A stretch of 64,000 bases of DNA from an uncultured bacterium (lineage in GTDB: Bacteria > Oederibacteriota > PGYV01 > Palsa-1178), in the NCBI GenBank assembly GCA_937889595.1, contig CALAOR010000010.1:1-64000 (forward strand), in the 5' to 3' direction. The position numbers and the translations under genes are program-made. Shown here in pieces: positions 1,804-52,664 of the stretch; the stretch's first letter is position 1; every line of letters begins with the position of its first letter. Under the pieces are notes generated by a model. It worked only from the letters and a program-made list of their open reading frames with translations, was not told the origin of the DNA and made no database searches.

Positions 1804-4800
1804 ATGACTAAAACTGCGTTTGGTATTTGTCTCGGCGCGTCTACTATAAGCGCTGTGGAATTATCCAAAAAGGGCGATGATTTTAAGGTTGAAAGGGTTA
1901 TCAGGAAAGCGCACGACGGCAACCCCAAGGCCATATTTGCAGAAGTGGTGAAAGAGCTTAAGACCGGGGACAGCCATGTGCTTGTAACGGGCAGGCGTTT
2001 CAGGGAATTTGTGAATGTGCCTTCAATTACAGAGCCCGAGGCAGTGGAAGAGGCTTTGCAGCATTTATCCGTGAAAGATAAAAAATATGACGCGGTAGTG
2101 TCGGCCGGCGGCGAGACTTTTATAGTATATAGGCTTGACCACGAACAAAAGGTGTCGGGAATCTCAACCGGGAACAAATGCGCTTCAGGCACGGGGGATT
2201 TCTTCCTCCAGCAGATAAAAAGAATGAACATAAGCATAGATGAAGCCGTGGAGAAAGCCATGCAGGGCGACCCCTACAGCGTGTCGGGCAGGTGCTCCGT
2301 ATTCTGCAAGTCCGACTGCACGCACGCATTGAATAAAGGCGTTCCCATATCAAATGTAACCGCGGGGCTTTGCGCCATGATAGGCGAGAAAATAACGGAA
2401 CTCGTCATGAAAGTGCCGCATGAAAACGTGCTGATAACCGGCGGGACGACCTTAAACAAAGCCGTGATCGCAAGCGTCAAAAAATTCATTGATAACGTGA
2501 CTGTTCCGGTTGAGGCGCCTTATTTTGAGGCGCTCGGCGCGGCAATCGCCGCATTTTCCAAGGGAAAGAAAATCACCGGACAGCTTTTCAAAGAAGGCCA
2601 TTCAGGTTTCTCCGTGCTTCTGCCGCTTAAAGACGCTGAAAACCTCGTTACTTTCAATAAGTCCGAGAGGGGCACGCTGCGCCCGAACGACAAGTGCGTA
2701 ATCGGGCTTGACGTGGGTTCTACAACCACAAAAGCCGTCCTCATGCGAGTGTCCGATGACAAAATACTCTCGGATATTTACCTCCGTACAAACGGCAATC
2801 CCATAGAAGCCTCGCGAAAGTGTTATGAAAGTATTTTAAAGGACATAGGGGACACTCCTGTTGACATCGTGAATATAGGCGTTACAGGTTCGGGCAGGCA
2901 GATTGCCGGCTTATACTCCATCACCGACGGCGTGATAAATGAGATCATTGCGCATGCTTCAGCCGCGGTGTATTTTGACCCTGAAGTGGATACGATCTTT
3001 GAAATAGGCGGGCAGGACGCCAAGTACACGCATATTACCGCGGGCGTCGCGTCCGACTATGCCATGAACGAGGCATGCTCGGCCGGAACAGGTTCTTTCC
3101 TTGAAGAAGCGGCGTTCGAATCCCTCGGTGTTGATTACAAACAGATAGCGGACATGGCCATAACGGCAAAAAGACCGCCTAATTTCAATGACCAGTGCGC
3201 GGCATTCATATCTTCCGACATAAAAAACGCCAGCCACGAAGGCATATCAAAGGAAGACATACTTGCGGGACTGGTTTATTCGATTTGTTTTAATTATGTC
3301 AACAGGGTAAAAGGGCACAGGCCTGTCGGTGAAAAGGTATTCATGCAGGGCGGGGTTTGTTATAACAAAGCCGTGCCCCTTGCCATGGCTGCAATCACCG
3401 GCAAGCAGATCATAGTCCCGCCCGACCCGGGCCTCATGGGCGCATTTGGAGTGGCCCTGGAAGTCAAAAAGAGGCTGGACTTAAACCTTCTTGAAGAAGG
3501 AAAATACGACTTAAAGCGCATGATAGCAAGGCAGATAACAAATGAAAAATCGTTTGTGTGCCTGGGTGGAAAAGAAAAATGCGACAGAAAATGCGCAATA
3601 AATATGATAAGGATAGAAGGCAAAGTATATCCTTTTGGCGGCGCTTGCAACAAGTATTACAACCAGAGATATAATATAGACGTTGATGCGGAAAAACTCG
3701 ACTATGTCGCGGTGAGGAACCGGCTGGTTTTTGAGAGATTCGCGCCCGCCATGCCCATAAATGAAAATTCTCCTGTTATCGGGATAAACCGCTCATTTAT
3801 AGTCCTGCAAATGTTCCCGTTATACTATAATTTTTTCGCGAATTTAGGGTGCAGAGTCATACTTTCAAAGGAACTCGTGGAAGACGCGTCGCACCTGCAT
3901 ACGACATCATTTTGCTACCCTGCGCAGGTATCCATAGGCATGTTTGAGGATCTGCTAAAGTATGATCCGGACTATGTATTTATGCCGCATGTTGAGGAAA
4001 TGCACGTGGCAAATACCGAAGCCAGGAAAGAATTTTCGGCTACCTGCATATTTACCCAGGGCGAGGCATTTACCATGCGGCAGATATTTAAGGGCAGGGG
4101 CCTGGATAAAAAGATACTTGCCCCGACATTGAATTTCTCAAAGGGCGTTGAAGATGAGAAAAAGTCCTTTATCGCGCTCGGGGTTCAGATAGGATTTTCG
4201 GCTGAGGCCGCAGCCGCTGCTTTTGACAGGGCCGACGCGGTGCAAAACGAGTTCTATAAGGAAAAGAAAAAGGTGGGGCGAGAGTTCCTCCAGGAACTTC
4301 ACAAGGACCCGTCAAAAATAGCCGTGGTCCTGTTGGGCGCCCCGCATCATGCTTTTAACGAGGACACGAATAAAGGTGTGCCGCGGAAACTGACTTCGCG
4401 CGGTTATGCCGTGATACCTTTTGACATGCTGCCCATAGAACACGAACCTCTGGAGTCGCCGCATGACGATTACCTGCACTGGGAAATAGGACAGAAATTA
4501 ATAAGCGCTTCCCAGATAATTAAAAAAGACAACCAGCTTTACGGGTTATATATAACCAACTTTCTGTGCGCCATAGACTCCCTGACAGTGACATATTTCA
4601 GGCGTATTATGAAAAACAAGCCGTCACTAACGCTCGAACTTGACGGGCACACGGCCGACGCGGGCATTGATACCAGGGTTGAAGCTTTCATAGATGTTGT
4701 AAAGAACTATATTGAAGTGATGAAAAAAGTGCAGGAAACAAAACACTCCGGGTTTGTGCCGGCAAAAATGTCAATAGAGAACACGGGAATGTATTTTGTG

Positions 4801-6140: not shown

Positions 6141-6319
6141 TTACTGCGAATGGTAAATGGCCTTTATGATAGGTCGTGTCCGGCACGGATGAAATTCTTC
6201 CATGGATTGCGCGCTTGTATTATAAAGGGTTTTAGTGGCGCGCAGGCCATGGAAGAATTTCATCCGCACCGGACACGATAAAGAATTTCATGGATTTATA
6301 GGGTTTTCCGACAGTCTCC
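6141..6319. repeat. Palindromic repeat element, copy A
   Basis: Two 40-base arms, 6175-6214 and 6238-6277, pair with few mismatches around a 23-base loop. The element starts with actgcgaatggtaaatggcc and ends with ttttccgacagtctc (6304-6318), both shared with the copy at 13.9 kb. The left terminal sequence (ctgtcggaaaa) is mostly missing here. It lies between the activase stop and the PAS-GGDEF start and could act as a transcript-end structure, a mobile palindrome, or both. Confidence 0.75.
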
Positions 6320-10944: not shown

Positions 10945-11018
10945 TGATACTGCCGGGAAGTCCTTATGATAGGTCAAGAAAATCAGCCATAATAAAGAGG
11001 GTTTTCAGACAGTATCTG
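10945..11018. repeat. Short copy C of the palindromic repeat family
   Basis: The left end gatactgccgggaa (10945-10958) and right end ttttcagacagtatc (11003-11017) are inverted versions of the same terminal sequence. The centre keeps ccttatgataggtc, as in copies A and B, but the long arms are gone. It lies between the lipoprotein stop and the hemerythrin start. Confidence 0.65.
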
Positions 11019-13865: not shown

Positions 13866-13900
13866 AATCCGGGATTTAAACCCGCAAAAACCCGCATTAG

Positions 13901-14111
13901 ATGCTGCCGGAAAAGCATGTCATGTACCTTAAGCTACTGCGAATGGTACATGGCCTTTATGATAAGTCGTGTGTGGTACGAACTTTAATTTTTCTATGGA
14001 TTTTGCGCTTATATTATATAGGGGAATCGCGCAAAGGCCATAGAAAAATTAAAGTTCGTACCGCACACGAAAGGAAACACGTCATATTAATGATGGTTTT
14101 CCGACAGTCTC
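13901..14111. repeat. Palindromic repeat element, copy B (complete)
   Basis: Terminal inverted repeats ctgccggaaaagc (13904-13916) and ttttccgacagtctc (14097-14111) bound a 210-base element. Inside are a small hairpin, catgtacc (13921-13928) with ggtacatg (13945-13952), and a long one with 41-base arms (13968-14008 and about 14028-14069). Arm sequence differs from copy A at many positions, yet the two arms still match each other. It fills the start of the 438-base gap before the hydrolase. Confidence 0.78.
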
Positions 14112-14179
14112 AAAAAAATACCATTACCCCGGCCTGTATTGACCCTGTTTATTGCGTACGTTCTGAAAATGCCTTTGTA

Positions 14180-14229
14180 TTGACTAATAGTAAGAATATA
14201 TTGACTAAAAGTAAGGCGCATATTGACTA
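14180..14229 (+). promoter_or_regulatory. Three phased TTGACTA direct repeats, likely operator or promoter region
   Basis: TTGACTA occurs at 14180, 14201 and 14223, spaced 21 and 22 bases (two helical turns). The first two continue as ...AGTAAG. The third could serve as -35 with TTATAT at 14244-14249. It lies 80-125 bases before the dienelactone hydrolase start. A regulator that binds direct repeats is inferred. Confidence 0.45.
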
Positions 14230-14303
14230 TAAGGATATAAATGTTATATATATTTCGTTCGGTAAAAATTTAAGCAAAATAATATTTTTAGAGGAGGAAA
14301 ACA

Positions 14304-15119
14304 GTGGATAAAAAATTTTTGATCCCGGTTTTAGCAGTGTTTTTATTGATCCTTGCCAATTCCATAGTGTTTGCGGAAGCCGAAATTGTGGCCAAAGACG
14401 TCGAGTACAGGGACGGGAATGCCGTGCTGGAAGGTTACGCAGTTTACGACAGCGCCAAGGCTGGAAAAGTGCCCGGCATTATCATAGTACATGAGTGGAA
14501 CGGGCTGGGTAAGTACGTCAAAGGCAGGGCCCGGCAACTTGCCTTAATGGGTTACTCGGTATTTTGCGCGGATATTTACGGCAAAGGCATAAGGCCCAAA
14601 AACCCGGAGGAGTCCGGAAAAGAGGCAGGCATATACAGGGCGGACAGGAAACTCATGCGCTCACGCGTCAATGCGGCCCTGGAAGAGATGAAGAAAATGA
14701 ACATATCTGACAATACAAGGATCGCGGCTATGGGGTACTGCTTCGGCGGCGGGGTAGTGCTTGAACTTGCCCGCAGCGGCGCGAATATTCCGGGTGTTGT
14801 GGTTTTTCACGGGAACCTGGACACGCCCGAGCCGGCAAAGCCGGGTGATATAAAGGCAAAAGTGCTTGTGTTGCACGGCGCGGATGACCCATATTCGCCT
14901 GCGGACAAGATAAAAATTTTCCAGGATGAAATGCGGGGGGCAAATGTGGACTGGCAGATGAATTTTTACGGCGGGGCCGTCCACGGGTTTACAAACCCTG
15001 ATAATGGCTCAAACACTTCGACAGGTGTTGCCTATAATAAAGAGGTTGACATGCGTTCGTGGGAAGCCATGAAGGCCTTCTTTAAGGAACTATTCGAAAA
15101 AAAGGAAGCAGTCAAATAA
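14304..15119 (+). CDS. Exported dienelactone hydrolase family protein
   Basis: A 271-residue alpha/beta hydrolase from GTG 14304 with GAGGAGG just upstream. Residues 1-24 are a signal peptide (VLAVFLLILANSIVFA), so it acts in the periplasm or outside. The Cys-Asp-His triad of the family is visible: MGYCFGGG (nucleophile Cys, about 148), HGADDPYS (Asp, about 193) and GAVHGFTN (His, about 225). The oxyanion region has HEWNGL. Relatives cleave dienelactones, but most exported homologues have unknown ester substrates. Pirin lies 58 bases downstream and may be co-transcribed. Confidence 0.88.
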   Translation: MDKKFLIPVLAVFLLILANSIVFAEAEIVAKDVEYRDGNAVLEGYAVYDSAKAGKVPGIIIVHEWNGLGKYVKGRARQLALMGYSVFCADIYGKGIRPKNPEESGKEAGIYRADRKLMRSRVNAALEEMKKMNISDNTRIAAMGYCFGGGVVLELARSGANIPGVVVFHGNLDTPEPAKPGDIKAKVLVLHGADDPYSPADKIKIFQDEMRGANVDWQMNFYGGAVHGFTNPDNGSNTSTGVAYNKEVDMRSWEAMKAFFKELFEKKEAVK

Positions 15120-16083: not shown

Positions 16084-16119
16084 TAGACAAGTGTTTTTGT
16101 TAAAAACAGGGGGTAAAAA

Positions 16120-16263
16120 ATGGATTTGTTATTCCGGCTGTTTTTTTCATGTGCTGTGCTGCATTCCGGTTTTTCACTTTTGTCGTGTTATTGCGTGCGT
16201 TGGCCGGTTTTTGCCGGTAAAAAGCGGTTGACCGTCAGTTTTGTCAAAATAAAATACAGGTAA
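16120..16263 (+). CDS. Possible small Cys-containing hydrophobic peptide
   Basis: A 47-codon ORF starting at ATG 16120 behind GGGGG-taaaaa. The predicted peptide has a hydrophobic N-terminal stretch with Cys and ends KIKYR. No family is recognised. The evidence is only the ribosome site and an open frame, so it may be chance. Confidence 0.25.
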   Translation: MDLLFRLFFSCAVLHSGFSLLSCYCVRWPVFAGKKRLTVSFVKIKYR

Positions 16264-16280
16264 GTAATAGCGTAATAAAT

Positions 16281-16309
16281 TTGACGGAATAATCGCAATG
16301 ATATATAAT
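16281..16309 (+). promoter_or_regulatory. Promoter for response regulator 1
   Basis: TTGACG (16281-16286), 17 bases, TATAAT (16304-16309), 34 bases before ATG. The second regulator gene has the same arrangement. Confidence 0.62.
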
Positions 16310-16343
16310 ATTACCGGATGTACAAAAACCGGGGAGCTGATAA

Positions 16344-16730
16344 ATGCACATAATGGTTGTTGATGATGAAGATGATATCGTCAGGCTGACAAGCACAATT
16401 TTTGAGTTATATAATCATAAGGTCACAAGGACTAATTCCGGAAATGAATGCATGGAAAAATTAAATGCGGGGATCATTCCCGATGTCATACTGCTTGACC
16501 TGATGATGCCGGGATTATCCGGGTATGAAACATGCAGGATGATAAAAGCGGACCCAAGGTTCAATAAGATACCTGTAATAATATTTTCCGCAAAAACAGG
16601 CAAGGACGATATCGCTGAAGCGTATAAGCTCGGGATTGACGGTTATATTACAAAACCGTTTGACCCGCTTGACATGGTTAAGCAGATTGAAAAGAGCGTA
16701 AAACCGGCAGCCGGGCATGGATCTGTATGA
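16344..16730 (+). CDS. CheY-like single-domain response regulator (copy 1)
   Basis: A 128-residue receiver domain without an output domain. The acidic pocket (VVDDEDD), the phospho-acceptor Asp in VILLDLMMPG (about 54), Ser in IIFSAK and Lys-Pro in ITKPFDP are all present, so it should be phosphorylated by a sensor kinase encoded elsewhere. ATG at 16344 follows GGGGAGCTG. It is about 70 percent identical by eye to the protein at 17.3 kb, so the pair arose by duplication; repeats fill the gap between them. Confidence 0.92.
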   Translation: MHIMVVDDEDDIVRLTSTIFELYNHKVTRTNSGNECMEKLNAGIIPDVILLDLMMPGLSGYETCRMIKADPRFNKIPVIIFSAKTGKDDIAEAYKLGIDGYITKPFDPLDMVKQIEKSVKPAAGHGSV

Positions 16731-16800
16731 CATGAAAGTATCTGACCTGAAAAAGCCGGTTTTGATATCGCTGGAAAAATTTTATCAGTGCCGGACCCTA

Positions 16801-16907
16801 CTTATCATTAAGGCCATGTACCATTCGCAGTAGCTCAGGTACATGGCATGCCCGTGTACCATTCGCAGTAGCTTAAGGTACATGGCATGCTTTTCCGACA
16901 ATATCTA
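16801..16907. repeat. Palindromic repeat family, copy D1 (reverse orientation, hairpin unit duplicated)
   Basis: Read on the minus strand, this is the left half of copy B: terminal ttgtcggaaaagc (16890-16902), then catgccatgtacc ... ggtaca hairpins. The hairpin unit occurs twice, at 16813-16850 and 16853-16890. The long arms of the element are absent. Confidence 0.68.
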
Positions 16908-17182
16908 AATAGTTTTCTAAACCCATATTTGACATATTTTTGAGACTCCTTTTCAACGCTTACAATATTCGCGCCCAACAACTTTAACACCCATGTACCA
17001 CTCGCTATTGCTCGGGTGCATGGCATGTTTTCCGACAGTATCTAAATAGCTTTCTAAACCCATATTTGACATATTTTTGAGACTCCTTTTTAACGCTTAC
17101 AATATTCGCACCCAACAACTTTGACACCCATGTACCACTCGCTATTGCTCGGGTGCATGGCATGTTTTCCGACAGTATCTAA
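16891..17182. repeat. 137-bp tandem repeat, two copies plus partial third end
   Basis: ttttccgaca recurs at 16891, 17028 and 17165, exactly 137 bases apart. The units in between are nearly identical, with a handful of substitutions. Each carries tctaaacccatatttgaca, a central AT-rich part, and a hairpin (ccatgtacc with ggtgcatgg, one G-T pair). The family's terminal sequence closes each unit, so the elements have inserted or expanded head-to-tail. This occupies most of the 582-base gap between the two regulators. Confidence 0.78.
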
Positions 17183-17246
17183 ATAATTATCTAATCCCGT
17201 ATTCTTGCCATCAGTCTGTTTATGTTATTACATGCCTGTAATTAAT

Positions 17247-17275
17247 TTGACAAATCAACCGAAATGATATACAAT
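17247..17275 (+). promoter_or_regulatory. Promoter for response regulator 2
   Basis: TTGACA (17247-17252), 17 bases, TACAAT (17270-17275), 37 bases before ATG. Confidence 0.62.
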
Positions 17276-17312
17276 AGGCTCATTAGACATACATAAAATA
17301 AGGAGCCTATAT

Positions 17313-17699
17313 ATGCACATAATGGTTGTTGATGATGAAGATGACATCATCAGGCTGACAAGCGCGGTTCTTGAAATGAATAATCATAAGACAACCAGCG
17401 CCTGCTCGGGAAATGAATGCCTGGAAAAATTAAACGCGGGCATTGTGCCTGATATTATACTTCTTGACCTGATGATGCCCGGAATAAGCGGGTATGAAAC
17501 GTGCATGAAGATAAAAACGGACCAAAGGTTCAAAAGGATACCTGTAATAATCTTTTCCGCAAAATCAGGCAGGGATGATATTGAGTACGCATACAGGCTC
17601 GGGATTAACGGTTATATTACGAAACCTTTTGACCCGCAGGACCTGCTTAAGCAGGTTGAAAGGTATGCAAAAGCATTAACCGGGCATGTACCTGACTAA
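17313..17699 (+). CDS. CheY-like single-domain response regulator (copy 2)
   Basis: A 128-residue receiver domain paralogous to the one at 16.3 kb. It has VVDDEDD, the phospho-acceptor Asp in IILLDLMMPG, IIFSAKSG and ITKPFDP, so all switch residues are intact. Differences cluster in helix 1 (residues 18-32) and the last helix, the surfaces that choose kinase and target, which suggests that the two copies now serve different partners. AAGGAG lies 7 bases before ATG. Confidence 0.92.
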   Translation: MHIMVVDDEDDIIRLTSAVLEMNNHKTTSACSGNECLEKLNAGIVPDIILLDLMMPGISGYETCMKIKTDQRFKRIPVIIFSAKSGRDDIEYAYRLGINGYITKPFDPQDLLKQVERYAKALTGHVPD

Positions 17700-17726
17700 A
17701 AGGCACCCGGCCGGAAAGCGGTTTAT

Positions 17727-17936
17727 ATGGAAATAACTGAAGCAAAATTACTCGGGCGTCTGCACAATCGGGATAAGACCAGGGAAAATCTGTTTATATG
17801 TTCCTGCGGCGGAGCAAACTGGATAACGGATCTTAATGAAGGCAACAGGAAGGTTCAATGCAATAAATGCAATAAATCGTATAATCTTGTCAGGAATAAA
17901 AATCTTTATAAGATATTGCATCAGACCGTCAGGTAA
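17727..17936 (+). CDS. Small zinc-ribbon-like protein
   Basis: A 69-residue basic protein with CSCGGANWI and, 20 residues later, QCNKCNKSY. Two Cys pairs of this spacing can hold one Zn. It lies 27 bases after regulator 2 and may share its transcript. No family is recognised; nucleic-acid binding is the usual role of such ribbons. Confidence 0.55.
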   Translation: MEITEAKLLGRLHNRDKTRENLFICSCGGANWITDLNEGNRKVQCNKCNKSYNLVRNKNLYKILHQTVR

Positions 17937-30709: not shown

Positions 30710-30942
30710 ATGTAGGCGCAACCTTGACTTCGGCTGAGCTCAGTCGAAGCCTAGGTTGCGGATTTTGTTCTAACGCGGCTTAAATCAAATGATACTGTCG
30801 GAAAACCCCTAAAAACCATCGTTGTGGGTCGAATAATATTCGACCCCTACAAATATCTGCCTGTATTTGTAGGGGCAGCATATCATGCTGCCCGCCCTTG
30901 CAGGCTTTTCCTACTCAGCCGAAGTCAAGGTTGCGCCTACAT
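30710..30942. repeat. Nested intergenic palindromes (TGTAG...CTACA type)
   Basis: A perfect 29-base inverted repeat (30710-30738 and 30914-30942) encloses further palindromes: gggtcgaataat/attcgaccc (30826-30847), cctacaaata/tatttgtagg (about 30846-30875) and gggcagcat/atgctgccc (30874-30895). One end of the GATACTGTCGGAAAA family lies inside at 30790-30804. The outer arms begin and end in tgtag/ctaca, as does the hairpin at 41.4 kb. The rest of the 30690-31051 gap holds nothing else recognisable. Confidence 0.75.
30790..30804 (-). repeat. Solitary end of the palindromic repeat family
   Basis: gatactgtcggaaaa at 30790-30804 is the cleanest copy of the terminal sequence of the elements at 6-17 kb. 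No partner end was found within 300 bases, so this is a remnant or a solo end. Confidence 0.55.
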
Positions 30943-41590: not shown

Positions 41591-44500
41591 ATGACCAGAA
41601 TCGGCCGCTCCGGAAAATTAAGAATACACTTTCAGCTTTCCGTTATATTAATTGCGCTTGTGTTACCCTTCTATATTTCCGCATCTCCTTTTTCGGTCAA
41701 CGGCCAATTACATGTTTCCGGGAATCAGCTTGTGAATGAATGCGGGTCTCCGGTACAGCTCCGCGGCATTTCCAGCCACGGTCTGCAGTGGTACGGGCTG
41801 AACAACTGCTTTGATTTTTGCTGCATAAGCGCATCAGCGCTCGATTACATGGCTAATACCGTCGGCATAGACGTGTTCAGGATAGCGATGTATCCGGAAC
41901 CCGACGGGTATATAGCCAACCCGAGCAGATTTACACAGCAGGTAAATAACATCGTGCAGATGTGCGAAGACAGGGGCATTTACGCGCTCATAGACTGGCA
42001 CGTACTTACACCCGGCGACCCGAACGCCGATATTGTTTACGCAAGGACGTTTTGGGAGTCCATGGCGACCGCGCACAAGGACAGCCGAAACGTAATATAT
42101 GAAATATGCAATGAACCCAACGGCGTTTCCTGGAGCCAGGTTGTAACATACGCAAATGATATCATACCGAGGATCCGCGCCATTGATCCCGACGCCGTCA
42201 TAATAGTAGGAACGCCAAACTGGTCGCAGCTTGGATCGGATGTGGTCAACAACAAGCTTTCATATTCGAACATAATGTATACATTCCACTTTTACGCGGC
42301 AACTCATAACACAGGCATGCTTACCAGTTTTGTAGGGCAGCTGCCTATATTTGTGACCGAATGGGCCGCGACAGAGGCAAGCGGACTGGGAGCTACAAAC
42401 TATACCGTGGCGGATTCGTTTATAAGCATAATGGCCACTAACAAAATAAGCTGGTGCGCGTGGAACTGGTCCGAGTCTACGGATACATCGGGTATGCTGA
42501 ATGTAGGCGCGTGCGATGCGGCGAATTGGTCGAGTTATAAGCCGACCGGAAGCTATGTCGTGGGAAAGGTGTCGAACCCTGCCGACAGCTTTACCGCGTG
42601 CAACATAGCGACGAACACGCCTACTCCAAATATAGTACCCACGGAAGTTATTCTGGCAACAGATCTCCGCCTGGACAGCATGACCGACGGCGATTATGTG
42701 AGCAATATCTGCAGTAACTGGTACGCATATGACGACAGCAATGACTGCACTGACAAGAACTGTACTATAAATGCTCACGGGACCTCGCTTATCGTCCCGT
42801 GGTCAAAGGACCACTGGCAGGACCTCGGGCGGCCCGTGCAGAATTTTTACATGCAGCAGCCCGGGCACAACGGCGCGGCAGATTACGCGGCGCGGATTAC
42901 AGGAGTGGTTACAACGACATTTTTATACGGATTTGCCGGTTTGGGGTTCCCGCTGAAAGAACCCGAGGGCCCGGTCGACATACACACGGCCACCGGCTTA
43001 AGTTTCTGGTGCAAAAGCAACGAGTCAAGGACTTACAGGCTGAAAATAAATGCCCCGCAGGCATTCGCCGGGCGCCTGGACGAGGACATGTACGGTTATG
43101 TGTTCACCGCGACCACATCGTGGCAAAAGGTGTCGATTGACTTTGCCAGCATCCTTTTCTCGCAGGAAGGATGGGGCAATACGCTGGTGACAAGGGCCAT
43201 GGCGCTGGCCCAGGTGGATACGATACAGTGGCAGACACAGGGGCAGACAGGAGCGCCGTACAATTTTGATCTATGGATAGACGATGTTGTTCTTATGAAC
43301 GCGCCGGCGGCATTAAAAACCATAGCGACCGCAGGCTGCGGATCGGCAAATACATTCACGGTCACGCCTTCAAGAACACCGACAGCCACATATACCCGCA
43401 CTGTCACGTGTACAGCAACCAGTACAGCTACACGGACAAATACGCCGGCAAACACTTTCACATTTACAAACACCGCGACCAACACGGCCACCAGGACCTA
43501 TACTCCGCTGCCTACATTCACAAATACTATCGTTGATACGCCTACCTTTACACGGACAGCCACGCCGCCGACAGCCACGAATACCCCTACAATGACGCGG
43601 ACATGGGCTGATTCGCCGACATTTACGCATACACGCACGGATACGGCTACACTCACATACACTGTTACTATTGCACAAACAGATACCTATACGCCCGCGT
43701 TTACGGCAACAATGACGCCTACAATAACGCGGACATGGACTGAATCGCCGACATTTACGCATACGCCCGCGTTTACGGCAACAATAACGCCTACAATAAC
43801 GCGGACATGGACTGAATCGCCGACATTTACGCATACACGCGCGTATACGGCAACAATGACTCCTACAATAACGCCAAGCCTGACTCTGACTCTGACTCTT
43901 ACTCTTACTTTTACCGGCACGCCGACTTTAACGGATACTCCGGTAAATACACCGACAAAAACAGCCACATCAGGAGCTTACCTGACGGTCCAGATAATCG
44001 GGACACCGAATGCGGGAGACACCATAACGGTCATAATGATAGTAACAAATATAGGGGACACGGCTGCTGACAATGTATTGCCTTCAGGTCTTGCGATTGC
44101 GGGTACAGGAGGCGTTTCTGCTCTGACAAGCCCGTCTTCAATGGTTTCCATACCGGCGGAAGGAACTGTTGCGTTCACCTGGACATATAATGCTGATTCT
44201 TCAGGTGTTGTGACGTTCCAGGGAAGCGCAAGCGGTATTGATGCTGTAGGAGCATGGGTGGTAACCAGCGGACTTGTTACAAGCAACGAGGTAGCATTCG
44301 GTGTTTCGCTGCCGACAATTACATTCACAGACACACCGTCGGCAACGCATACACCGGCAAATACATTCACAGGTACCCCGACAGCAATGGATACACCGAC
44401 AGTTTTATACACACCGACAAATGTATTTACTGCTACACCTACACGAACACCAGTACCCGTGGATGCGAAAGATTTAAAAATTACGGATGAATTGGTATAC

Positions 44501-45033: not shown

Positions 45034-45074
45034 CCTCCGACTAATATAATATATGATATTATATTAGTCGGAGG
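45034..45074. repeat. Perfect 18-bp stem-loop
   Basis: cctccgactaatataata (45034-45051) pairs fully with tattatattagtcggagg (45057-45074). It abuts the left BRO-region repeat and could be an insertion end or a terminator. Confidence 0.6.
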
Positions 45075-45240
45075 TCTTGACCTGATACATGATGATTGTT
45101 GTATGTAAACAAAGTGGGTTTGTCAGGTAGCAGTTCAAGACGTGGCCCCGGATTGCGGACAACAAAGGGTGAGGAACCGGCGGGTTGGACAAGAATAATT
45201 CTAAAAGCTCAATCCGAGTTCTGACCCCAGCCACACCAGC
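45074..45240 (+). repeat. BRO-region repeat, left copy
   Basis: Starts gtcttgacctgatacatgat and ends ctgaccccagcca. Compared with the copy at 47.1 kb it lacks a central insert. Within it gtcttga and tcaagac can pair. With the stem-loop above it fills most of the 44783-45341 gap. Confidence 0.72.
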
Positions 45241-45256
45241 CACATAAAAAATCAAA

Positions 45257-45285
45257 TTGACGAGTGTTTTAAATGGATGTAGTAT
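45257..45285 (+). promoter_or_regulatory. Candidate promoter for the BRO-N gene
   Basis: TTGACG (45257-45262), 17 bases, TAGTAT (45280-45285), 57 bases before ATG. Confidence 0.42.
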
Positions 45286-45341
45286 GTAATTAAATTGAGG
45301 GAACCAAATAATCCGTACAAGGCGGGAGAAGAGGGCGCACT

Positions 45342-46178
45342 ATGGTAAAAAAAACTGTTACCGGAAGTCAAATAGCGGTCTTTAAGGGTAAAAAAGTCAG
45401 AAAAGTACTTTATAATAATGAATGGTGGTTTGTAATCATCGATATTGTTTCGGTATTGACGGATTCCGTCCAGCCGGATGGGTACATAAAAGATATGCGA
45501 AGGCGCGATCCTGAACTTGCAAAAGGGTGGGGGCATATTGCCACCCCCCTTGTGGTGCCTACGGAAGGCGGGCCGCAAAAGCTAAACTGCGCCGACACAG
45601 AGGGTATATTCCGTATAATACAGTCAATCCCATCATCCAAAGCAGAACCGTTAAAACGCTGGCTGGCTAAGGTCGGTTACGAGAGGGTTCAGGAAGTGGA
45701 AAATCCGGAACTTGCGGCCAAACGCACGAGGATGCTCTATAAACTGAAAGGATACAGCGAAGATTGGATTGAAAAGAGGATGAGGGGCATAGCCATCCGG
45801 GAAGAGTTAACCGATGAATGGCAGAAACGGGGAGCGCAGGAGGAAAAGGATTATGAGATTTTAACGGCAGAAATATCAAAAGCGACTTTTGGCGTAACGC
45901 CAAGCGAGTATAAAAAGCTTAAAGGAATAAAAAGGGAAAACCTGCGCGATCATATGGATGATTTTGAACTGATTTTTACAATGCTTGGTGACAGGTCAAC
46001 CACCGAAATACACCGCAATGAAGATTCAAAAGGCGTAAAAAAACTTAAAGCCGACGCCCAAGCTGGCGGAGGGATAGCCGGAAACGCTCGAAAAGAATTG
46101 GAAAAAAAGTTGGGAAGATCTGTTGTGTCAGAAAAAAACTATCTGCCTAAGACGAAAAAAAATAAATTGGCGGATTAA
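45342..46178 (+). CDS. BRO-N domain protein (phage antirepressor type)
   Basis: A 278-residue protein. Residues 8-115 are a BRO-N domain (IAVFKGKKVRKVLYNNEWWF ... VSVLTDSVQ ... YIKDMRRRD ... CADTEGIFRIIQSIPSSKAE), found in phage antirepressors and baculovirus BRO proteins that bind DNA. Residues 120-278 are Lys/Arg/Glu-rich helices, with TPSEYKKLKG and RKELEKKLGR, a tail seen in bacterial DinD-like and BRO proteins. GAGGG lies before ATG. It is flanked by direct repeats, which suggests a mobile or phage origin. The target is unknown. Confidence 0.8.
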   Translation: MVKKTVTGSQIAVFKGKKVRKVLYNNEWWFVIIDIVSVLTDSVQPDGYIKDMRRRDPELAKGWGHIATPLVVPTEGGPQKLNCADTEGIFRIIQSIPSSKAEPLKRWLAKVGYERVQEVENPELAAKRTRMLYKLKGYSEDWIEKRMRGIAIREELTDEWQKRGAQEEKDYEILTAEISKATFGVTPSEYKKLKGIKRENLRDHMDDFELIFTMLGDRSTTEIHRNEDSKGVKKLKADAQAGGGIAGNARKELEKKLGRSVVSEKNYLPKTKKNKLAD

Positions 46179-46290
46179 TGTTTGATGAAGTCTGTAACCG
46201 GATACTGTCTTGCACATAAGAAAAAAGATACTGAAAGGTTATACACAAATAAAGAAAAAAGCTGTGAGCAGGATGAAGCAAAAGGACAAT

Positions 46291-46479
46291 ATGTATATAT
46301 GGGATAATATGAAGCAGGAACACAGGGATTTGGTCCTGAAAAAAGTATACTGCGGCGGGTGCTGCCGGGCGGTGGAGATTGCGGATTATAGGTTTGAATC
46401 ATCAGGCACAAGCCTGGTGCTTAGAGGCAAATGCAAAAAATGCGGTCATGAAGCGGCGCGGGTGCTGGAGGGTTGTTGA
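46291..46479 (+). CDS. Small zinc-ribbon protein
   Basis: A 62-residue protein starting at ATG 46291, chosen for AAAGGA 6 bases upstream; the frame is open back to 46210. CGGCC and, 23 residues later, KCKKCGHEA give a four-Cys ribbon. No family is recognised. It lies 112 bases after the BRO-N gene in the same orientation and may belong to the same mobile unit. Confidence 0.5.
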   Translation: MYIWDNMKQEHRDLVLKKVYCGGCCRAVEIADYRFESSGTSLVLRGKCKKCGHEAARVLEGC

Positions 46480-46640
46480 AATAAATAGGATATCGCAAAT
46501 ATAGGGTCTGGCCCTAAATTTGCGTTATCAAAGGCGTAGCTAGCACGCCGGCTAGTCCGCCGAAGCGAACTTGCGAAGGCGGGAAGCTTTAGCGAAGGAG
46601 TGTCTCGCACGCCGGAGCTTTAGCGAAGGCGTGTTCCACG
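46480..46640. repeat. agctttagcgaagg-containing dispersed repeat
   Basis: After an imperfect palindrome (tagggtctggcccta, 46502-46516), the segment 46546-46635 has three variants of gaagctttagcgaaggcg. Positions 46611-46631 are identical to 1514-1534. No gene is seen. Confidence 0.6.
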
Positions 46641-46759
46641 ATGCAGGAACGAAATGCGGCGAGGGATTTCATTTTTTGGGGAATCGGAGTAGAATGGAAA
46701 GACGATAAACAATGGGACTCACAACATGAAAAGCGGGGCGGGAACTTCGGGTGATTGAC

Positions 46760-46858
46760 GGCAATTAAAACTCCCCTACAGGGAACTATAATTGCCGCTG
46801 AACAGCGGGTTGGATAAGAACACTTCTAAACGCTCAATTCGAGTTCTGACCCCAGCCA
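46760..46858. repeat. BRO-region repeat, middle (partial) copy
   Basis: From 46774 to 46858 it matches the insert and right half of the 47.1 kb copy (gggaactataattgccgctg, ending ctgaccccagcca). cggcaatta (46759-46767) can pair with taattgccg (46790-46798). Confidence 0.68.
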
Positions 46859-46892
46859 ACTGGAATTGGGGAATAAAAAGGATGGTGGAGAT

Positions 46893-47069
46893 ATGCCGTA
46901 TGTAAGCAAGGCACAGGAAGCTTATTTTAATGTTCACAGGAAAAAGCTGGAAGCTAAAGGGGTTGATGTGGATGAGTGGAACGCAGCGAGCAAAGGGAAA
47001 AAACTTCCGGCAAAGGTAAAAAAAGGCAAGGCAATAAAGACAGGAAAAAAGCCGGGCAAAGGAAAATGA
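46893..47069 (+). CDS. Small basic protein resembling phage-associated YSKAQ-type peptides
   Basis: A 58-residue protein from ATG 46893 with GGTGGAG upstream; the frame opens at 46866. It starts MPYVSKAQEAYFNVHRK, has VDEWNAASKGKKLP, and ends in a Lys/Gly tail. Similar short proteins with PYVSKAQ...F and a later D/E-W-x-x-A/S-K occur near phage and plasmid genes, function unknown; this is from memory of the pattern. The tail suggests nucleic-acid contact. Confidence 0.6.
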   Translation: MPYVSKAQEAYFNVHRKKLEAKGVDVDEWNAASKGKKLPAKVKKGKAIKTGKKPGKGK

Positions 47070-47110
47070 CGGAAGAAAAGGGTCAGGTGTAAGAAGAAAA
47101 AAGGGGTCGT

Positions 47111-47363
47111 GTCTTGACCTGATACATGATGATTGTTGTAAATAATCAAAGTAGGTTTGTCAGGTATCAGTTCAAGACGTGACCCCGGATTCACCCTGCA
47201 GGGAACTATAATTGCCGCTGAACAGCGGGGGATGATACCATATATTTTGTTCTTTTAAAGGCGGATGAAATATTTGCGGACAACAAAGGGTGAGGAACCG
47301 GCGGGCAGCGGGTTGGACAAGAACAATTCTAAACGCTCAACCCGAGGGCTGACCCCAGCCACC
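47111..47363 (+). repeat. BRO-region repeat, right (full) copy
   Basis: The longest version: the left part equals 45074-45240's start, then an insert shared with 46774-46858, then ggacaacaaagggtgagg and the end ctgaccccagcca. The other two copies look like deletion derivatives. With the left copy it brackets the BRO-N gene set. Confidence 0.75.
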
Positions 47364-48134
47364 CGTTTTGTTTATAATTTCGTTGGATAAAGAGACCGCT
47401 GCGACAGAGCTTGCCGATGAACAAAAAAGTCAAAAGAAAGTGGATTTTGGTAGTGTGTTTTAGGCATTTACGGGTCTATAATTGATTAATGCAGCTAAAT
47501 CAGTAGTGGATAAACGTAACAAAGGCGATTTGTCTATTGAGAAAACAATATTTTTTAATTTTTAGAAAGGGCGAATTGTTATGATTACACATTTGATGAT
47601 TTATAACAATGAAATTGCATGAATTCAGATTTAACTTGTTTATAAACTTAGATATGGTATAATTATTTTGTAAGGTTTAGTGTACCGGTTCTATACCGAA
47701 AATGCTATATAATTGGCGATCTTTGACAGCTTCAATAATTTAGATAAGCTATGGTCGTGGCGCGGCCGACGTGGCAGGGTATTCAAGTCATGAAATATTT
47801 TATATTGGGCATTGATATTTTGTTGGTATTTTGATACAATCATTCAAATAAAAAAAGTAGCTAAATCTTCTAAAATATCGATATAAGCGCCCCGGAGGCC
47901 AAAAGAAATGAAGTGCAGAAAGTGAAACTGAATTGATTATAAACAATCTCGGGAAGTATCAATTATATTTTAATCGGCGAATCCCTGCGCGGAACAATCC
48001 AAAAGCATTTATATGTTTTGTATTCTTACATTATTAAACGTAAATATATCAGTAGAAAAGAATCAAGTCAAACTGTTTTGAAAAGTTTGCTGAAATTGCG
48101 AGTTAACTGTTAATTGGGAAAGGGGTAATTTTCT
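47364..48134. other. Long AT-rich intergenic region upstream of the cyclase-like gene
   Basis: No gene above about 26 codons is convincing; a short frame at 47383-47463 reads ELADEQKSQKKVDFGSVF and may be a gene remnant. TTGTTT (47636-47641), 16 bases, TATAAT (47658-47663) is a plausible promoter facing right, about 470 bases before the next ATG. A lone GC-rich patch (gtggcgcggccgacgtggca, near 47757) stands out. Decayed DNA, a long leader or a noncoding RNA are all possible. Confidence 0.4.
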
Positions 48135-48866
48135 ATGCGTAGCAAGGTTGGGGCTATTAAAAGGCCAGAAATTGAAACGAGCGAATTCATTTATATAACA
48201 TTCGATATAGTCGGTAGCTCAAAATTATTTGATGACAAGGATGCTTATCGGATTGTCGAATTTGTTCACGAGTTTCAGAAATTAGGTAAGATTTGTTTTT
48301 GTAAAAATAATGACGGTATACCAAGTGCAATAATTATCTCAAATGCTTTAGATGGAATAACAATGGCAATATGTATGAAGCAACTTTACGCGACTACTGT
48401 TTTTCAAAGTCTTTTAAAAAAAATAAAAGATTTCAAAAAGAGAATCAAAATATTGCAAACTGAAAAATTTAGTGATTACAACATGGATCCAATAAAAATG
48501 AGAATTTCAATTGACAAATCAAATGGATATTTTTATCAAATTAAACAAAAACAAGCCAAGTATATAAACGCAATATTGAGTTTATTTAAGGATGTTCAAG
48601 AATATAATCCTCATACTGGTTCGTTTTATTCTAAAAATCTTTCTTATTTAATGAAAAACGAAAGAAACATTAGTGATGTAGAGTGTATCGCAGTATCGGG
48701 ATTACTTAAAGGTGAAGTTGGCGAAAAAGTGATAAAAAATGAATTAAATGAGGTTAATATACCTGGTAAAGATTCAAAGTTTTTTAGATATAAATTTAAG
48801 GATAACGACGCTGATATTGATTCAATTGAAGTGGTTCTACGTGCTGTCTCAACTGTAATAGCATAA
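48135..48866 (+). CDS. Divergent class III nucleotide cyclase-like protein
   Basis: A 243-residue soluble protein. Its order of motifs follows class III cyclases: YITFDIVGSSKL (first metal Asp, residue 24; compare FxDIxGST), NNDGIPSAII (Asp60; compare GDGxxAxF) leading into a helix ALDGITMAICMKQ, then MRISIDKSNGYF (compare VRIGIHTGxV), a helix AKYINAILSL, and SGLLKGEVGEKV near the end. The Asp spacing (36) is shorter than usual (about 44). If active it would make a cyclic nucleotide. Pycsar phage defence uses such cyclases. The type I dehydroquinase-like gene follows 33 bases later. AT-rich codons. Family by resemblance only. Confidence 0.45.
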   Translation: MRSKVGAIKRPEIETSEFIYITFDIVGSSKLFDDKDAYRIVEFVHEFQKLGKICFCKNNDGIPSAIIISNALDGITMAICMKQLYATTVFQSLLKKIKDFKKRIKILQTEKFSDYNMDPIKMRISIDKSNGYFYQIKQKQAKYINAILSLFKDVQEYNPHTGSFYSKNLSYLMKNERNISDVECIAVSGLLKGEVGEKVIKNELNEVNIPGKDSKFFRYKFKDNDADIDSIEVVLRAVSTVIA

Positions 48867-48899
48867 GGTTTAAAAATATCATTAATTAAAGGAGGAAAT

Positions 48900-49766
48900 A
48901 TGGATAAGGTTATCAGATACGGTCATCCGAAAATAACGGTGGTTGTGGGTGCTGATAGTGATAACGAGTTAGAAAAGCAAATTAATTACATACAATCACT
49001 TAACAAACAGTATGAATCTTTCAATTATAAAATAGGCGTGATTGAATTAAGACTTGATATGCTCAAGAATAAAATACATACATGTAGCAAACTCTATGCA
49101 GAACGTATAAAACAAAGATTGGGATTGCCGGTTTTAGTTTCGTGTAGGCGAGAAGGGGAAATTGGAGTTTATAAAATTGAAGAAAATGAACGAATAAATA
49201 TATTAGAAGGAATGATAGACAAGAAATATTCTGATATAATTGATATTGAGTATACTACCGAGCCAAAGGAACGAATCACATCAATAGTAAATAGATGTAA
49301 AGAAATAGGAATTGAGAGTGTTATTTCTATACATAGCCATAAAAACATGCTTCCTGTGGATTATATGTATAAAGTTTATAGTGATTCTTTTGCGAATTTC
49401 AAAGCTGATGCAGTTAAAATATGTACTACACCTAGAAATAATAGTGATGTTTTTAATTTGTTGAGATTTTGTCAATATAATTCGGGACAGCTTTCACCAA
49501 CTATAGTAATAGGCATGGGCAAGAAAGGTCAACTTACACGCATTTTGAGCCCATATATTGGGTCGCCTTTGACGTATGCATCTATTTCGGATGATACGGG
49601 TATTCCGGGCATCATACGTGCTGATAAAATGCTTAAGATGTTTAATGAAATGAAACCAACTGAGACTATTATTCATAATTTTGTACTTCCTGAAGATCAA
49701 ATAACTTCTATATTAAACAAAAAAAAATTAAAAAAATATGAAGATCATGTGCTTTCTGCAAGCTAA
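48900..49766 (+). CDS. Type I 3-dehydroquinate dehydratase-like protein (AroD-like)
   Basis: A 288-residue TIM-barrel protein; the family dehydrates 3-dehydroquinate through a Lys Schiff base. Visible: IELRLDML (Glu), SCRREGE (Arg), IDIEYT (Glu), SIHSHKN (general-base His, about 161), ADAVKICT (Schiff-base Lys, about 182) and KGQLTRI with GSPLTYASI. The last loop reads DTGIPGII where the family has APGQ, so the substrate-binding Gln is Ile. It is about 40 residues longer than most. Strong AGGAGG before ATG. Lying between a cyclase-like gene and a nuclease-NACHT gene in AT-rich DNA, it may not serve the shikimate pathway. Confidence 0.78.
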   Translation: MDKVIRYGHPKITVVVGADSDNELEKQINYIQSLNKQYESFNYKIGVIELRLDMLKNKIHTCSKLYAERIKQRLGLPVLVSCRREGEIGVYKIEENERINILEGMIDKKYSDIIDIEYTTEPKERITSIVNRCKEIGIESVISIHSHKNMLPVDYMYKVYSDSFANFKADAVKICTTPRNNSDVFNLLRFCQYNSGQLSPTIVIGMGKKGQLTRILSPYIGSPLTYASISDDTGIPGIIRADKMLKMFNEMKPTETIIHNFVLPEDQITSILNKKKLKKYEDHVLSAS

Positions 49767-49799
49767 AACAATTGACAATTTAAGTAATAAGGGTCCTTA

Positions 49800-50010
49800 T
49801 TGTAGACAGATGATGGCGTAAAATAGTCTCAGCAACTGATGAGGCTGCTCATCGTTGTCTTCACGGAAAATTTTGCAAGCTCAGCCTCGCATTCGAATAA
49901 AGTTTCATAACACATAATGTAAATGTTATTATACTTCACCGTACGCCAAAGTTTTTCGATAAAAATATTATCAAAAAAAATTGTTCACGGCCGTCCATGC
50001 TGATTTTTTA
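49800..50010 (-). pseudogene. IS3-family transposase (orfB, rve domain) remnant
   Basis: Read on the minus strand, ISMDGRE (about 50009) and, in another frame, DNIFIEKLWRTVKYNNIYI (49973 downward) then DEQPHQL in a third frame match the end of IS3 orfB (typically SMDGRGRxxDNIFIERLWRSVKYE ... NxERPHQ). Two frameshifts and lost flanks show that it is dead. It marks past transposition inside the AT-rich island. The rest of the 49767-50249 gap has an IS-end-like block (50111-50150). Confidence 0.72.
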
Positions 50011-50181
50011 CGATTTGACGAGGGGACGCAGGAAATAGGGCAACTGTTGTGGGCCTGTGTTCTACTCTACTGATACAGGTTTCTCCGTTGGTAGTGAAAT
50101 GTGCGGGCCTTTTCAATTGAAAACAGTGGTCTTTTTTAGCGGAATTTGCAAATAAGTGCAACATTAGTATAAGAATAAATA

Positions 50182-50209
50182 TTGAATTACTCTATTGATA
50201 TAGTATAAT
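50182..50209 (+). promoter_or_regulatory. Promoter for the nuclease-NACHT gene
   Basis: TTGAAT (50182-50187), 16 bases, TATAAT (50204-50209), 40 bases before the GTG start. Confidence 0.55.
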
Positions 50210-50249
50210 TATGTCATAAATAAATGTATCATATTTTTGGAGGTTTATC

Positions 50250-52664
50250 GTGGATTATGAATCAAATGAAACAAAAAAGGTAAAATTATTATCAAATGAT
50301 AAGAAAATTGATATTCTAATGAATTATAAAGAAGTTGAAATACACAAAGTATTAAAGACTTTGTTTTCTAAAATGCAACAGGAATATGTTGTTGAAATAA
50401 CACATGGTTCGAACGAGTTTGGGAAAGACTTAATTTTGATAAAAAGTGACCGGTTATTAAGACATGTAACAGCAGTAATTGTTAAAGTTGGGCATGTTGG
50501 TGGTAAAACAGCAGATGACGTAGATGAAATTGAAAACAAAATAAATAAAGCTTGCAAAGAAACTGATAAATTAACAAGAATAGAAGAAGAATTGATCAGT
50601 CAAATTAGACAAGCTTCTGATGTCCCTGCAGAAAGTAAGTTTATTTTCAATAAATTACCAATTGACAGAATTTTCGTTGTTATAGTCGGAACGATTAGTG
50701 GAAATGCAAGAAAGCGATTAGAGGCTTTTGTTGACAAAGATTGCAAAATTCGCGTTGAAATGAAAGATATTATTTGGTTAATAGATGAACTTACTCAGTA
50801 TTACCCTGAAATTTTCATTGTGGAGGCGACGGATAATGTAATAAACGATAAAATAATCGAACTAGAAAGCGCGAATTCCTTAGGACATAAAAATATTTAT
50901 TTATCTAAATACTTTGTTGATCCATTGGTTGCTACAATAGATATTCCGGTAAAATTTGACGAAGAAAAAATATCACTAATATTACGCGAAAAAAAAATTC
51001 AATTTATTGATTTGGAGGCTTTAATAAAAGAAAACAAAAGAATAATTATTGTAGGCGATCCTGGTACCGGCAAATCAAGCGCGCTAGCAAAAATTGCAGT
51101 TGACAAATTAAAAAAGGTATTAAAAAAAGGAGAACGAGCAGAAGAAAAAATTAAAACGCCGGTATTTATTCAAGCAAAAGATATTCTTAATATAAATAAT
51201 GGCGAGGAGCTTCTTAGCTATTTTTTCAAAGACATACATGCTAGTGAAAAATTCCTTGTAGACAACTTAATTTTAGATGCATTAGACGAAGTACCCATTG
51301 AAGATAGAGCAAATGTTATAGAACGAGCAAAAAAGATGGCTTTAGAACACGCATGTTCATTGATTATATCGAGTAGAAAGATTGACATTGTGAAGGAAAC
51401 ACCCCAGGGTTTTGAAAAATATGAAATACTTCCTTTTGAATTTAAGCAGGCTATGAAATTTTTTGAAAACATTATCTCGGATAAAACAAAATTGACAACA
51501 TTAAAAGATGGATTGGAAAAAATAAAAAATACAATTCCATTATTGCCTTTATCTTTAGTCCTTTTAATCGAAATAATAGAAGAACGTCAAGAAATTCCAG
51601 CATCAATAACTGAATTGTTTCAAAGATATTTTGATGTTGTGTTAGGAAGATTCGACGATAAAAAAGGTATAAAACAACTTTTTGAATATCAAATAAAGAA
51701 AAAATTTCTGTCAGAGTTAGCATTTACTGAATTTTTATCAAAAGAAAAACTTGAAATACAAGTTGAAGACTTTAAAGTCTTTTTGAATATTTTTAAACAA
51801 AAATTTGAATACGATGATGAAACTATTAAAAGTTTTATTAATGAGATCGAAAGAGCAGGCATAATCGATATTAAATCAAAAGTATTTTTTAAACATAGAT
51901 CATTTTTGGATTACTTTGCTGGCCTATATATATATGATAAGCAAGATGAAATAATTGATTTGCAAAACAAAATAGTTGACATTTTTTATAATGACATATG
52001 GGGAGACTCTTCATTTTTTTATATAGGTCTTAAGAGAGAGGTAAGCAGTTCTTTACTTGAAAAGATATTATTAAAAGATACAACTAACCTTTCTTCAATG
52101 TTTCAAAAATTTATGGTCGGAAAAATTATTCAAGCAGGATGGAATACCGATTCGGCAACTAAAATGATAGGGATAGAAAAGGCTTCAGAAACAGCGTCGA
52201 TATTAAGAGATAAATTTATGGAAGTTATGTCAACTGCAGATAAGAAAACTCCACAAATTTATGCTGATTTTTGGTTATTAGCTATTTCTGAAATTTCTTT
52301 CGGAAGTACTTTTCTTTTCAAAGAAGTAAATAAGTTATTATTAAATATTAACAAAGCAGATAATTATGAAAAAATTTATCAATTACTAGTTTTAAGTTGG
52401 GCAATGAAGAGATTTTTATTACCCCAGGAGAAAGCTAAAATCAGCGAAGCCATTTTAGAACAAATAAGTAAAGTAATTAATAATAAATTGCAGGAGTCAA
52501 GACTATTTTTAATCCTAGAACTATTAGAAAAGGATGATAAAAAAGTTATAAAAAAAATTGAAAAAAAATTGAATAAACTTAAGGCTAAACAAAACTACAT
52601 TTTCGGAAAATTATTACCACATGCAAAAAAAGGATTCAGAGCAAAAAAGCACCCAAAAAAATAA
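50250..52664 (+). CDS. Mrr-like nuclease-NACHT STAND ATPase, likely antiphage protein
   Basis: An 804-residue protein from GTG 50250 with GGAGGT upstream. Residues 30-200 resemble a PD-(D/E)xK nuclease: EITHGSNEFGKDLILI (Glu49, Asp60) and AVIVKVG (Lys79). The NACHT domain follows: Walker A GDPGTGKSS (269-277), Walker B LILDALDEV (340-348) and an SSRK sensor-like motif near 375. Residues 420-800 are helical (KHRSFLDYFAGLYI is typical of NACHT winged-helix ends), serving as sensor. STAND proteins with nuclease effectors (Avs, bNACHT) sense phage parts and degrade DNA. No signal peptide. AT-rich codons and an IS3 remnant next to it support horizontal gain. Confidence 0.8.
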   Translation: MDYESNETKKVKLLSNDKKIDILMNYKEVEIHKVLKTLFSKMQQEYVVEITHGSNEFGKDLILIKSDRLLRHVTAVIVKVGHVGGKTADDVDEIENKINKACKETDKLTRIEEELISQIRQASDVPAESKFIFNKLPIDRIFVVIVGTISGNARKRLEAFVDKDCKIRVEMKDIIWLIDELTQYYPEIFIVEATDNVINDKIIELESANSLGHKNIYLSKYFVDPLVATIDIPVKFDEEKISLILREKKIQFIDLEALIKENKRIIIVGDPGTGKSSALAKIAVDKLKKVLKKGERAEEKIKTPVFIQAKDILNINNGEELLSYFFKDIHASEKFLVDNLILDALDEVPIEDRANVIERAKKMALEHACSLIISSRKIDIVKETPQGFEKYEILPFEFKQAMKFFENIISDKTKLTTLKDGLEKIKNTIPLLPLSLVLLIEIIEERQEIPASITELFQRYFDVVLGRFDDKKGIKQLFEYQIKKKFLSELAFTEFLSKEKLEIQVEDFKVFLNIFKQKFEYDDETIKSFINEIERAGIIDIKSKVFFKHRSFLDYFAGLYIYDKQDEIIDLQNKIVDIFYNDIWGDSSFFYIGLKREVSSSLLEKILLKDTTNLSSMFQKFMVGKIIQAGWNTDSATKMIGIEKASETASILRDKFMEVMSTADKKTPQIYADFWLLAISEISFGSTFLFKEVNKLLLNINKADNYEKIYQLLVLSWAMKRFLLPQEKAKISEAILEQISKVINNKLQESRLFLILELLEKDDKKVIKKIEKKLNKLKAKQNYIFGKLLPHAKKGFRAKKHPKK

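Follow-up and report, generated by a model that had tools for sequence, protein, structure and literature searches.

The window (the whole 64,000-nt stretch of DNA analysed here) belongs to contig C10 of the source genome G000, a draft of 3.42 Mb in 93 contigs. Among the relatives used for comparison, G001 is of the same genus, G002 and G003 are of the same family, and G004 and G009 of the same order. Two CheY-like single-domain response regulator genes of 128 aa each lie on the forward strand, copy A at 16344–16730 (Pfam Response_reg, E 5e-27) and copy B at 17313–17699 (E 3e-27), and a spacer of 582 bp (16731–17312) separates them. The initial annotation described them, from the sequence, as duplicated receiver genes of about 70 percent identity with matching promoters and a 582-base gap, and all of this is borne out. 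The copies share 89 of 128 amino acids and 310 of 387 nucleotides, with dN 0.18, dS 0.45 and changes at 10 of 30 four-fold sites. By sequence, the catalytic residues of the receiver motif look intact in both. A sigma-70-like promoter precedes each gene on the same strand, TTGACG-17-TATAAT at 16281–16309 for copy A and TTGACA-17-TACAAT at 17247–17275 for copy B. Both are consensus matches only, which alone are weak, the region having 10 promoter-like sites versus 6.5 in shuffles. The upstream regions of the two copies align with a score of 56, compared with a maximum of 41 in 200 shuffles, and the downstream regions score 24, not above shuffles (34). The alignable duplicated segment extends from the promoter region through the stop codon. 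Among four other neighbouring products checked with Pfam, three have domains (pirin, dienelactone hydrolase and methyltransferase) and none is a chemotaxis protein.

In 59 genomes searched, the closest gene outside G000 is in G003, with 59% identity over 121 matched positions. G002 comes next with 48%, and the best gene of G001, a genome only 86% complete, has 47%. G003 has one copy at this level, with no adjacent repeats and with different neighbour genes. Its upstream region scores 36 against the promoter region of copy B (shuffles 40) and 31 against that of copy A (shuffles 46), no better than shuffled sequence, and synteny with G003 is rejected on these two grounds. No relative among the 58 searched carries both CheY genes. 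In named contigs, the nearest CheY matches are in bins labelled Spirochaetia bacterium, candidate division FCPU426 and Candidatus Goldiibacteriota. Over the full length of 128 residues, copies A and B share 89 identities, more than either shares with the G003 protein (64 for A and 71 for B), suggesting that the gene duplication is probably younger than the split of G000 and G003. Alternatively, gene conversion or a faster evolution of the G003 gene may account for this difference.

The spacer was initially described as almost entirely repeats. It is mostly repeats, but their share is about 75%, or about 437 of 582 bp (16767–17203). All of its elements lie on the forward strand, in the order of a MITE palindrome remnant, two hairpins, a terminal repeat, then twice an 85-bp body, a hairpin and a terminal repeat, and finally a body fragment. 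The right-hand remnant of a palindromic MITE (16767–16813) matches the reverse complement of 6142–6207 and 13932–13979, and its copies in the genome begin at query position 6–8. The small hairpin that follows is duplicated, as first annotated. REP-like hairpin unit 1 (16814–16850) has a 9-bp stem, a 15-nt loop and the tag CATG, and unit 2 (16852–16889) is its direct tandem copy; a similar double unit is found inside a MITE on contig C33 (locus L017). The first MITE right terminal repeat, TTTTCCGACAATATC, is an end-pattern match at 16891–16905.

The exact 137-bp period claimed for the next part also holds. Unit 1 (16891–17027) is composed of the terminal repeat, the 85-bp body and a hairpin, unit 2 (17028–17164) differs from it at 5 of 137 bases, and a truncated third unit (17165–17203) retains the terminal repeat (17165–17179) and 24 bp of the body. 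TTTTCCGACA opens each of these three units, and a longer pattern has 12 matches in the window versus 1.33 expected. All three terminal repeats in the spacer point in the same direction, as right ends only. Hairpin units 3 (16991–17027) and 4 (17128–17164) are identical, with the GGTGCATGG arm and one T-G pair. This is the stem said to keep pairing through a G-T change; the pair is present, but it is the same in both 137-bp units, and it therefore counts as one copied change and not as independent support.

The genome has four copies of the whole 137-bp unit, two of them in this spacer and one each on C89 (93%) and C90 (90%). The 137-mer has 15 matches in its own genome and the hairpin region has 49. 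The whole unit is absent from 20 relatives, of which G001 has six partial and G018 two short matches over the hairpin. The array has no match in plasmids, and a search for an orthologous empty site of it found none. A loose-threshold Rfam scan of 16600–17400 gave two sub-threshold snoRNA matches only. Elsewhere in the window, another repeat cluster at 45074–47362 has segments of 32–81 bp repeated 0.4–2.1 kb apart with 89–100% identity. The G+C content falls to 29–31% at 48001–52000; elsewhere in the window, it is mostly 40 to 52% per 2-kb step. Tandem repeats with periods divisible by three, at 43689–43874 (72 bp) and 60793–63599 (about 303 nt), may be part of repeat-rich proteins.

The MITE family

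The MITE is bounded by terminal inverted repeats of about 15 bp, GATACTGTCGGAAAA and TTTTCCGACAGTATC, and 20 of 30 inverted pairs span 131–212 bp. Sites of TTTTCCGACAGTATC with at most two mismatches are above the reversed-pattern control in G000 (200 vs 22), G001 (51 vs 18) and G003 (124 vs 18). The other 18 genomes have 0–27 sites; several of these are above the control, with small numbers of sites (for example 14 vs 3 in G004, 24 vs 12 in G015), others are not (for example 20 vs 27 in G002). Exact 5-bp target duplications flank 10 of the 30 inverted pairs in the fetched loci, compared with a mean of 0.57 and a maximum of 4 in 1000 shuffles, and duplications of 4 bp or 6 bp flank none of the 30. 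Of the 20 pairs with no exact 5-bp duplication, some have one end in common with another pair or seem to be truncated.

Several members lie in the window. The complete copy at 13900–14111 (forward strand) has both terminal repeats, an internal palindrome and one insertion of a 38-nt hairpin, and shows no exact 5-bp duplication. A 136-aa ORF at 13901–14311 overlaps it and is probably not a gene. The partial copy at 6142–6318, also forward, retains the palindrome and the right terminal repeat, with its hairpin truncated. A short MITE-like pair of terminal repeats at 10946–11016 (forward) spans 71 bp with no duplication, and an exact match of the terminal repeat is present on the reverse strand at 30791–30805.

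With terminal inverted repeats, a target duplication of fixed length and many non-coding copies of at most a few hundred bp, this family fits a known kind. Like other bacterial MITEs, its members are short, non-coding and multi-copy, have terminal inverted repeats and short target duplications, and are nested with other repeats. Unlike them, it shows no parent insertion sequence in one candidate region, and the array in the window consists of direct-oriented right ends only. That candidate is the one wide inverted pair examined (C20, about 2.9 kb), where no autonomous transposase with MITE ends is found; by Pfam, its ORFs are NlpC/P60, RecO, a methyltransferase, a LemA-type protein and two with no match.

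The hairpin unit and its insertion sites

The hairpin unit has a 9-bp stem, an interrupted inner stem and a 4-nt tag, 36–38 nt in all. In 27 aligned copies of the own genome, the gap between the 9-bp arms is 14–16 nt, inner 2-bp stem included, and the tag is CATG in 15, CAAG in three, CACG in two and one of seven others in the rest (one of them cut by a gap). The covariance model R1, built from these 27 copies, matches at least 70 sites in G000, at least 42 in G001, at least 42 in G018 and at least 26 in G032. Altogether at least 274 matches are distributed over 20 of 44 phylum genomes, and the remaining 24 have none. These counts are lower bounds, as at most 148 candidates were scored per genome, under stricter filters and with a single-genome model; R1 also skips the adjacent second unit at 16852. 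Hairpins in the own genome occur as direct pairs with 7-nt gaps and also as inverted pairs, and the copies at the window locus are intergenic. Two stem-loop patterns have no exact match in viral contigs.

Pairing of the stem is maintained through two-sided changes, at four pairs in 26 distinct own-genome rows and at eight pairs in 47 distinct rows of the relatives. Both counts are inflated: the own-genome alignment was selected for pairing (at least 8 of 9 pairs required), and that of the relatives comes from the covariance model and includes both strands of some hairpins and repeats of overlapping loci. Comparison of filled and empty MITE sites, which are paralogous, offers evidence for the hairpin that is independent of these pairing counts. 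The loop site ...GCG^CTT... is found in 16 distinct contexts, nine empty and seven with exactly 36 nt, and these seven filled copies may all go back to a single insertion that multiplied along with the MITE. At the site AAGG^(C)TTTTCC, seven of 13 contexts hold 0–2 nt, four hold 37–38 nt and two hold 75–76 nt (two units). These lengths define the insertion unit as the hairpin plus its 4-nt tag. No target duplication is seen at the MITE-internal sites beyond one ambiguous base.

A second kind of site is at the end of tRNA genes. In eight loci of eight genomes (L197, L198, L200, L205, L208, L214, L221 and L010), the hairpin starts at the tRNA-encoded CCA, as identified by ARAGORN and direct reading; ARAGORN was run on 58 loci, 28 of relatives and 30 of the own genome. 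The tRNAs are Val(CAC) in three, Asn(GTT) in two, Glu(CTC) in two (one of them L010, in the own genome) and Gln(CTG) in one. The Val(CAC) cases are at orthologous positions in three genomes that belong to one genus. In a ninth case, L300 of G029, the tRNA is seen by pattern only. A second CCA follows the hairpin unit in seven of the eight loci. These loci came from the best matches per genome and are not a random sample; over all listed matches in three genomes, hairpins flush with a tRNA are few, with one of 70 in G000, none of 42 in G018 and one of 15 in G041. For G000, about 0.005 flush hairpins are expected and one is seen. The tRNA-Asn gene carries the hairpin in G029, while two copies in G041 and one in G042 are hairpin-free and followed by other sequence, which makes insertion the simplest reading. 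The downstream flanks of these loci do not align, and the empty site is not an exact one. Entry before the CCA and entry behind it would leave identical sequences. As a separate observation, two of the four genomes compared within one genus have about 5 kb of extra sequence separating tRNA-Asn from the conserved stretch that follows (G041:C4 2251–7420 and G042:C260 20724–25436, vs G029:C21), possibly an island integrated at tRNA-Asn.

We tentatively propose, with somewhat less than even odds, that the hairpin is a self-contained mobile unit of 36–38 nt which starts with CCA and repeatedly enters tRNA genes precisely at their CCA end, replacing the CCA with its own so that the tRNA survives. 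This would be tRNA-safe targeting by a REP-like element with a new tag and a putative mobilising enzyme, spread through a candidate phylum. The open-access literature searched holds no account of this hairpin family, nor of a REP-like element inserted at the CCA end of a tRNA.

The maintained pairing and the flush position at tRNA 3' ends in eight genomes could also suggest that the hairpins are kept for a function, for example to terminate transcription, to stabilise mRNA or to signal tRNA 3' processing, with their spread being secondary. In G002, G007 and G008, which have one or two hairpin matches each, the best match or its locus is indeed flush with a tRNA. However, an enzyme that reads the structure in order to mobilise it would likewise conserve the pairing, the copy number is patchy among the genomes, and hairpins are nested inside MITEs. 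The tRNA-Asn copies in G041 and G042 are followed by an unrelated hairpin-plus-T-run-like sequence (by eye). No terminator-like site was found in 16100–17900, and a terminator role of the spacer was rejected on this ground. Retention for function is thus an unlikely explanation, and the array can be accounted for with no appeal to regulation.

A mobilising enzyme and relation to REP systems

Matches to Y1_Tnp number nine in G000 (E 0.01) and 117 in 44 genomes (E 0.001). We scanned 58 Y1_Tnp loci with R1, nine of the own genome and 49 of relatives; 57 of these come from the 117, and one is a weaker own-genome match. At none of the 58 loci, several of which are cut by contig ends, do hairpins lie on both sides of the Y1 gene. 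The only neighbour of this kind is a weak hairpin at L259 of G018 (2367–2407, 23 bits), which lies on one side of a Y1 ORF (2450–3268) cut by the contig end, with 43 nt between the hairpin and the ORF end. The R1 match at L248 is at chance level (E 0.56). Clustering of the Y1 ORFs (57 of 58 loci) gives no cluster that covers, and is confined to, the hairpin-rich genomes: the largest cluster also takes in hairpin-poor genomes, and a five-member cluster holds G000, G001 and G032 but also G002. An association of the hairpin with a RAYT was set aside, with nothing convincing in the 58 scanned loci.

Some Y1 genes are bounded on both sides by other shared hairpins, as seen in a simple stem search of 13 loci, for example L080 and L081 (C90 and C76 of the own genome), L084, and L229, L233 and L235 of relatives. 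The hairpin in L229 and L233 is of the GTGTGACAGTCAC type. The hairpins that bound these genes look like separate REP- or TIR-type systems.

The hairpin family resembles the REP, REPIN and BIME elements with RAYT (TnpA-REP) of PMC8266576, PMC3733652 and PMC3116915. Shared features are an imperfect palindrome of 20–40 nt whose stem is interrupted, copy numbers in the tens, a tetranucleotide at one end that varies little, inverted and direct pairs, and mosaic clusters; the maintained pairing of the palindrome also fits, in alignments that are biased by selection. The differences are a CATG-like tag instead of GTAG or CGTC, no RAYT gene flanked on both sides in the 58 loci, and some hairpins flush with a tRNA CCA. 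According to PMC3733652, CGTC-tagged REPs have stems of 8–9 bp, a tetranucleotide tag and no associated transposase gene, all of which are comparable here, the last in the loci scanned. However, their loops are 4–5 nt, compared with arms 14–16 nt apart in our hairpin, and their CCA tail is at the untagged end, while the CCA of the hairpin opens the stem. With respect to IS200/IS605-type mobilisation, the hairpin sites inside MITEs show no duplication of more than one base. Since no two-sided hairpins are found at the Y1 loci and the tag is neither GTAG nor CGTC, we do not claim REP membership. PMC3733652 also mentions untagged REP-like families, and the hairpin family is therefore not a new category. 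Judged from the sequences, the hairpin appears to work like a REP. We infer a Y1/HuH-type mobiliser from the style of insertion only.

Order of events at the locus

The initial annotation suggested that the repeats may have mediated or followed the gene duplication. The nearest other family sites in the window are those of the MITE at 13900–14111, more than 2 kb before copy A and with two genes between; after copy B, the nearest other family ends or hairpins are at 28 kb or beyond. With neighbouring sites this distant, the genes are not flanked in the order repeat-gene-repeat, and this part of the suggestion, mediation, finds no support. The 137-bp units, with their few differences, have diverged from each other much less than the two genes have and seem to be of far more recent origin, and the repeats are dispersed in the genome. 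From the lack of flanking and the difference in divergence, the repeats most likely followed the duplication and landed after it.

We explain the spacer, with a probability of about 0.8, by a build-up of non-autonomous mobile repeats into a mosaic once the CheY-like gene had been duplicated in tandem. A MITE with 15-bp terminal inverted repeats, of the family that makes 5-bp target duplications, would have landed in the spacer; only the right half of this MITE is left, carrying the double REP-like hairpin. A second MITE-like right end, with the 85-bp body, hairpin and terminal repeat, would have come to lie directly behind it in the same direction, and unequal recombination or slippage would then probably have doubled the 137-bp block in tandem. 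As a mobile unit in its own right, the hairpin would enter with no target duplication, and the simplest way for it to move would be as single-stranded DNA on which a Y1/HuH-type enzyme acts.

The tandem array could be an artefact of draft assembly, and the hairpin family does break assembly, as at least 11 of 70 own-genome hairpins have a contig end no more than about 250 nt away, where 0.86 would be expected. However, the array is internal to a contig of 88 kb, its units differ at five bases, and the junction of terminal repeat and TAAATAG recurs independently at L003 (reverse strand), making an artefact very improbable. Least probable of all is that the repeats caused the duplication by unequal recombination between repeats flanking a single ancestral regulator gene: repeats do occupy the space between the copies, and near-identical dispersed repeats can recombine, but at the mismatch limits used no family terminal repeat or hairpin lies within 2 kb upstream of A or 10 kb downstream of B, the duplicated segment does not run from repeat to repeat, and the 137-bp units are much less diverged than the genes.

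The locus is an ordinary one, a mosaic of mobile repeats next to a gene duplication that is older than they are. Of more interest is the hairpin family, which families of an uncultured phylum have in common and whose tag belongs to neither the GTAG nor the CGTC class. Filled and empty sites show exactly what is inserted, and REP mobilisation becomes testable in deep-branching bacteria. Some copies are flush with the tRNA acceptor end, which suggests how such tiny repeats can find safe targets.
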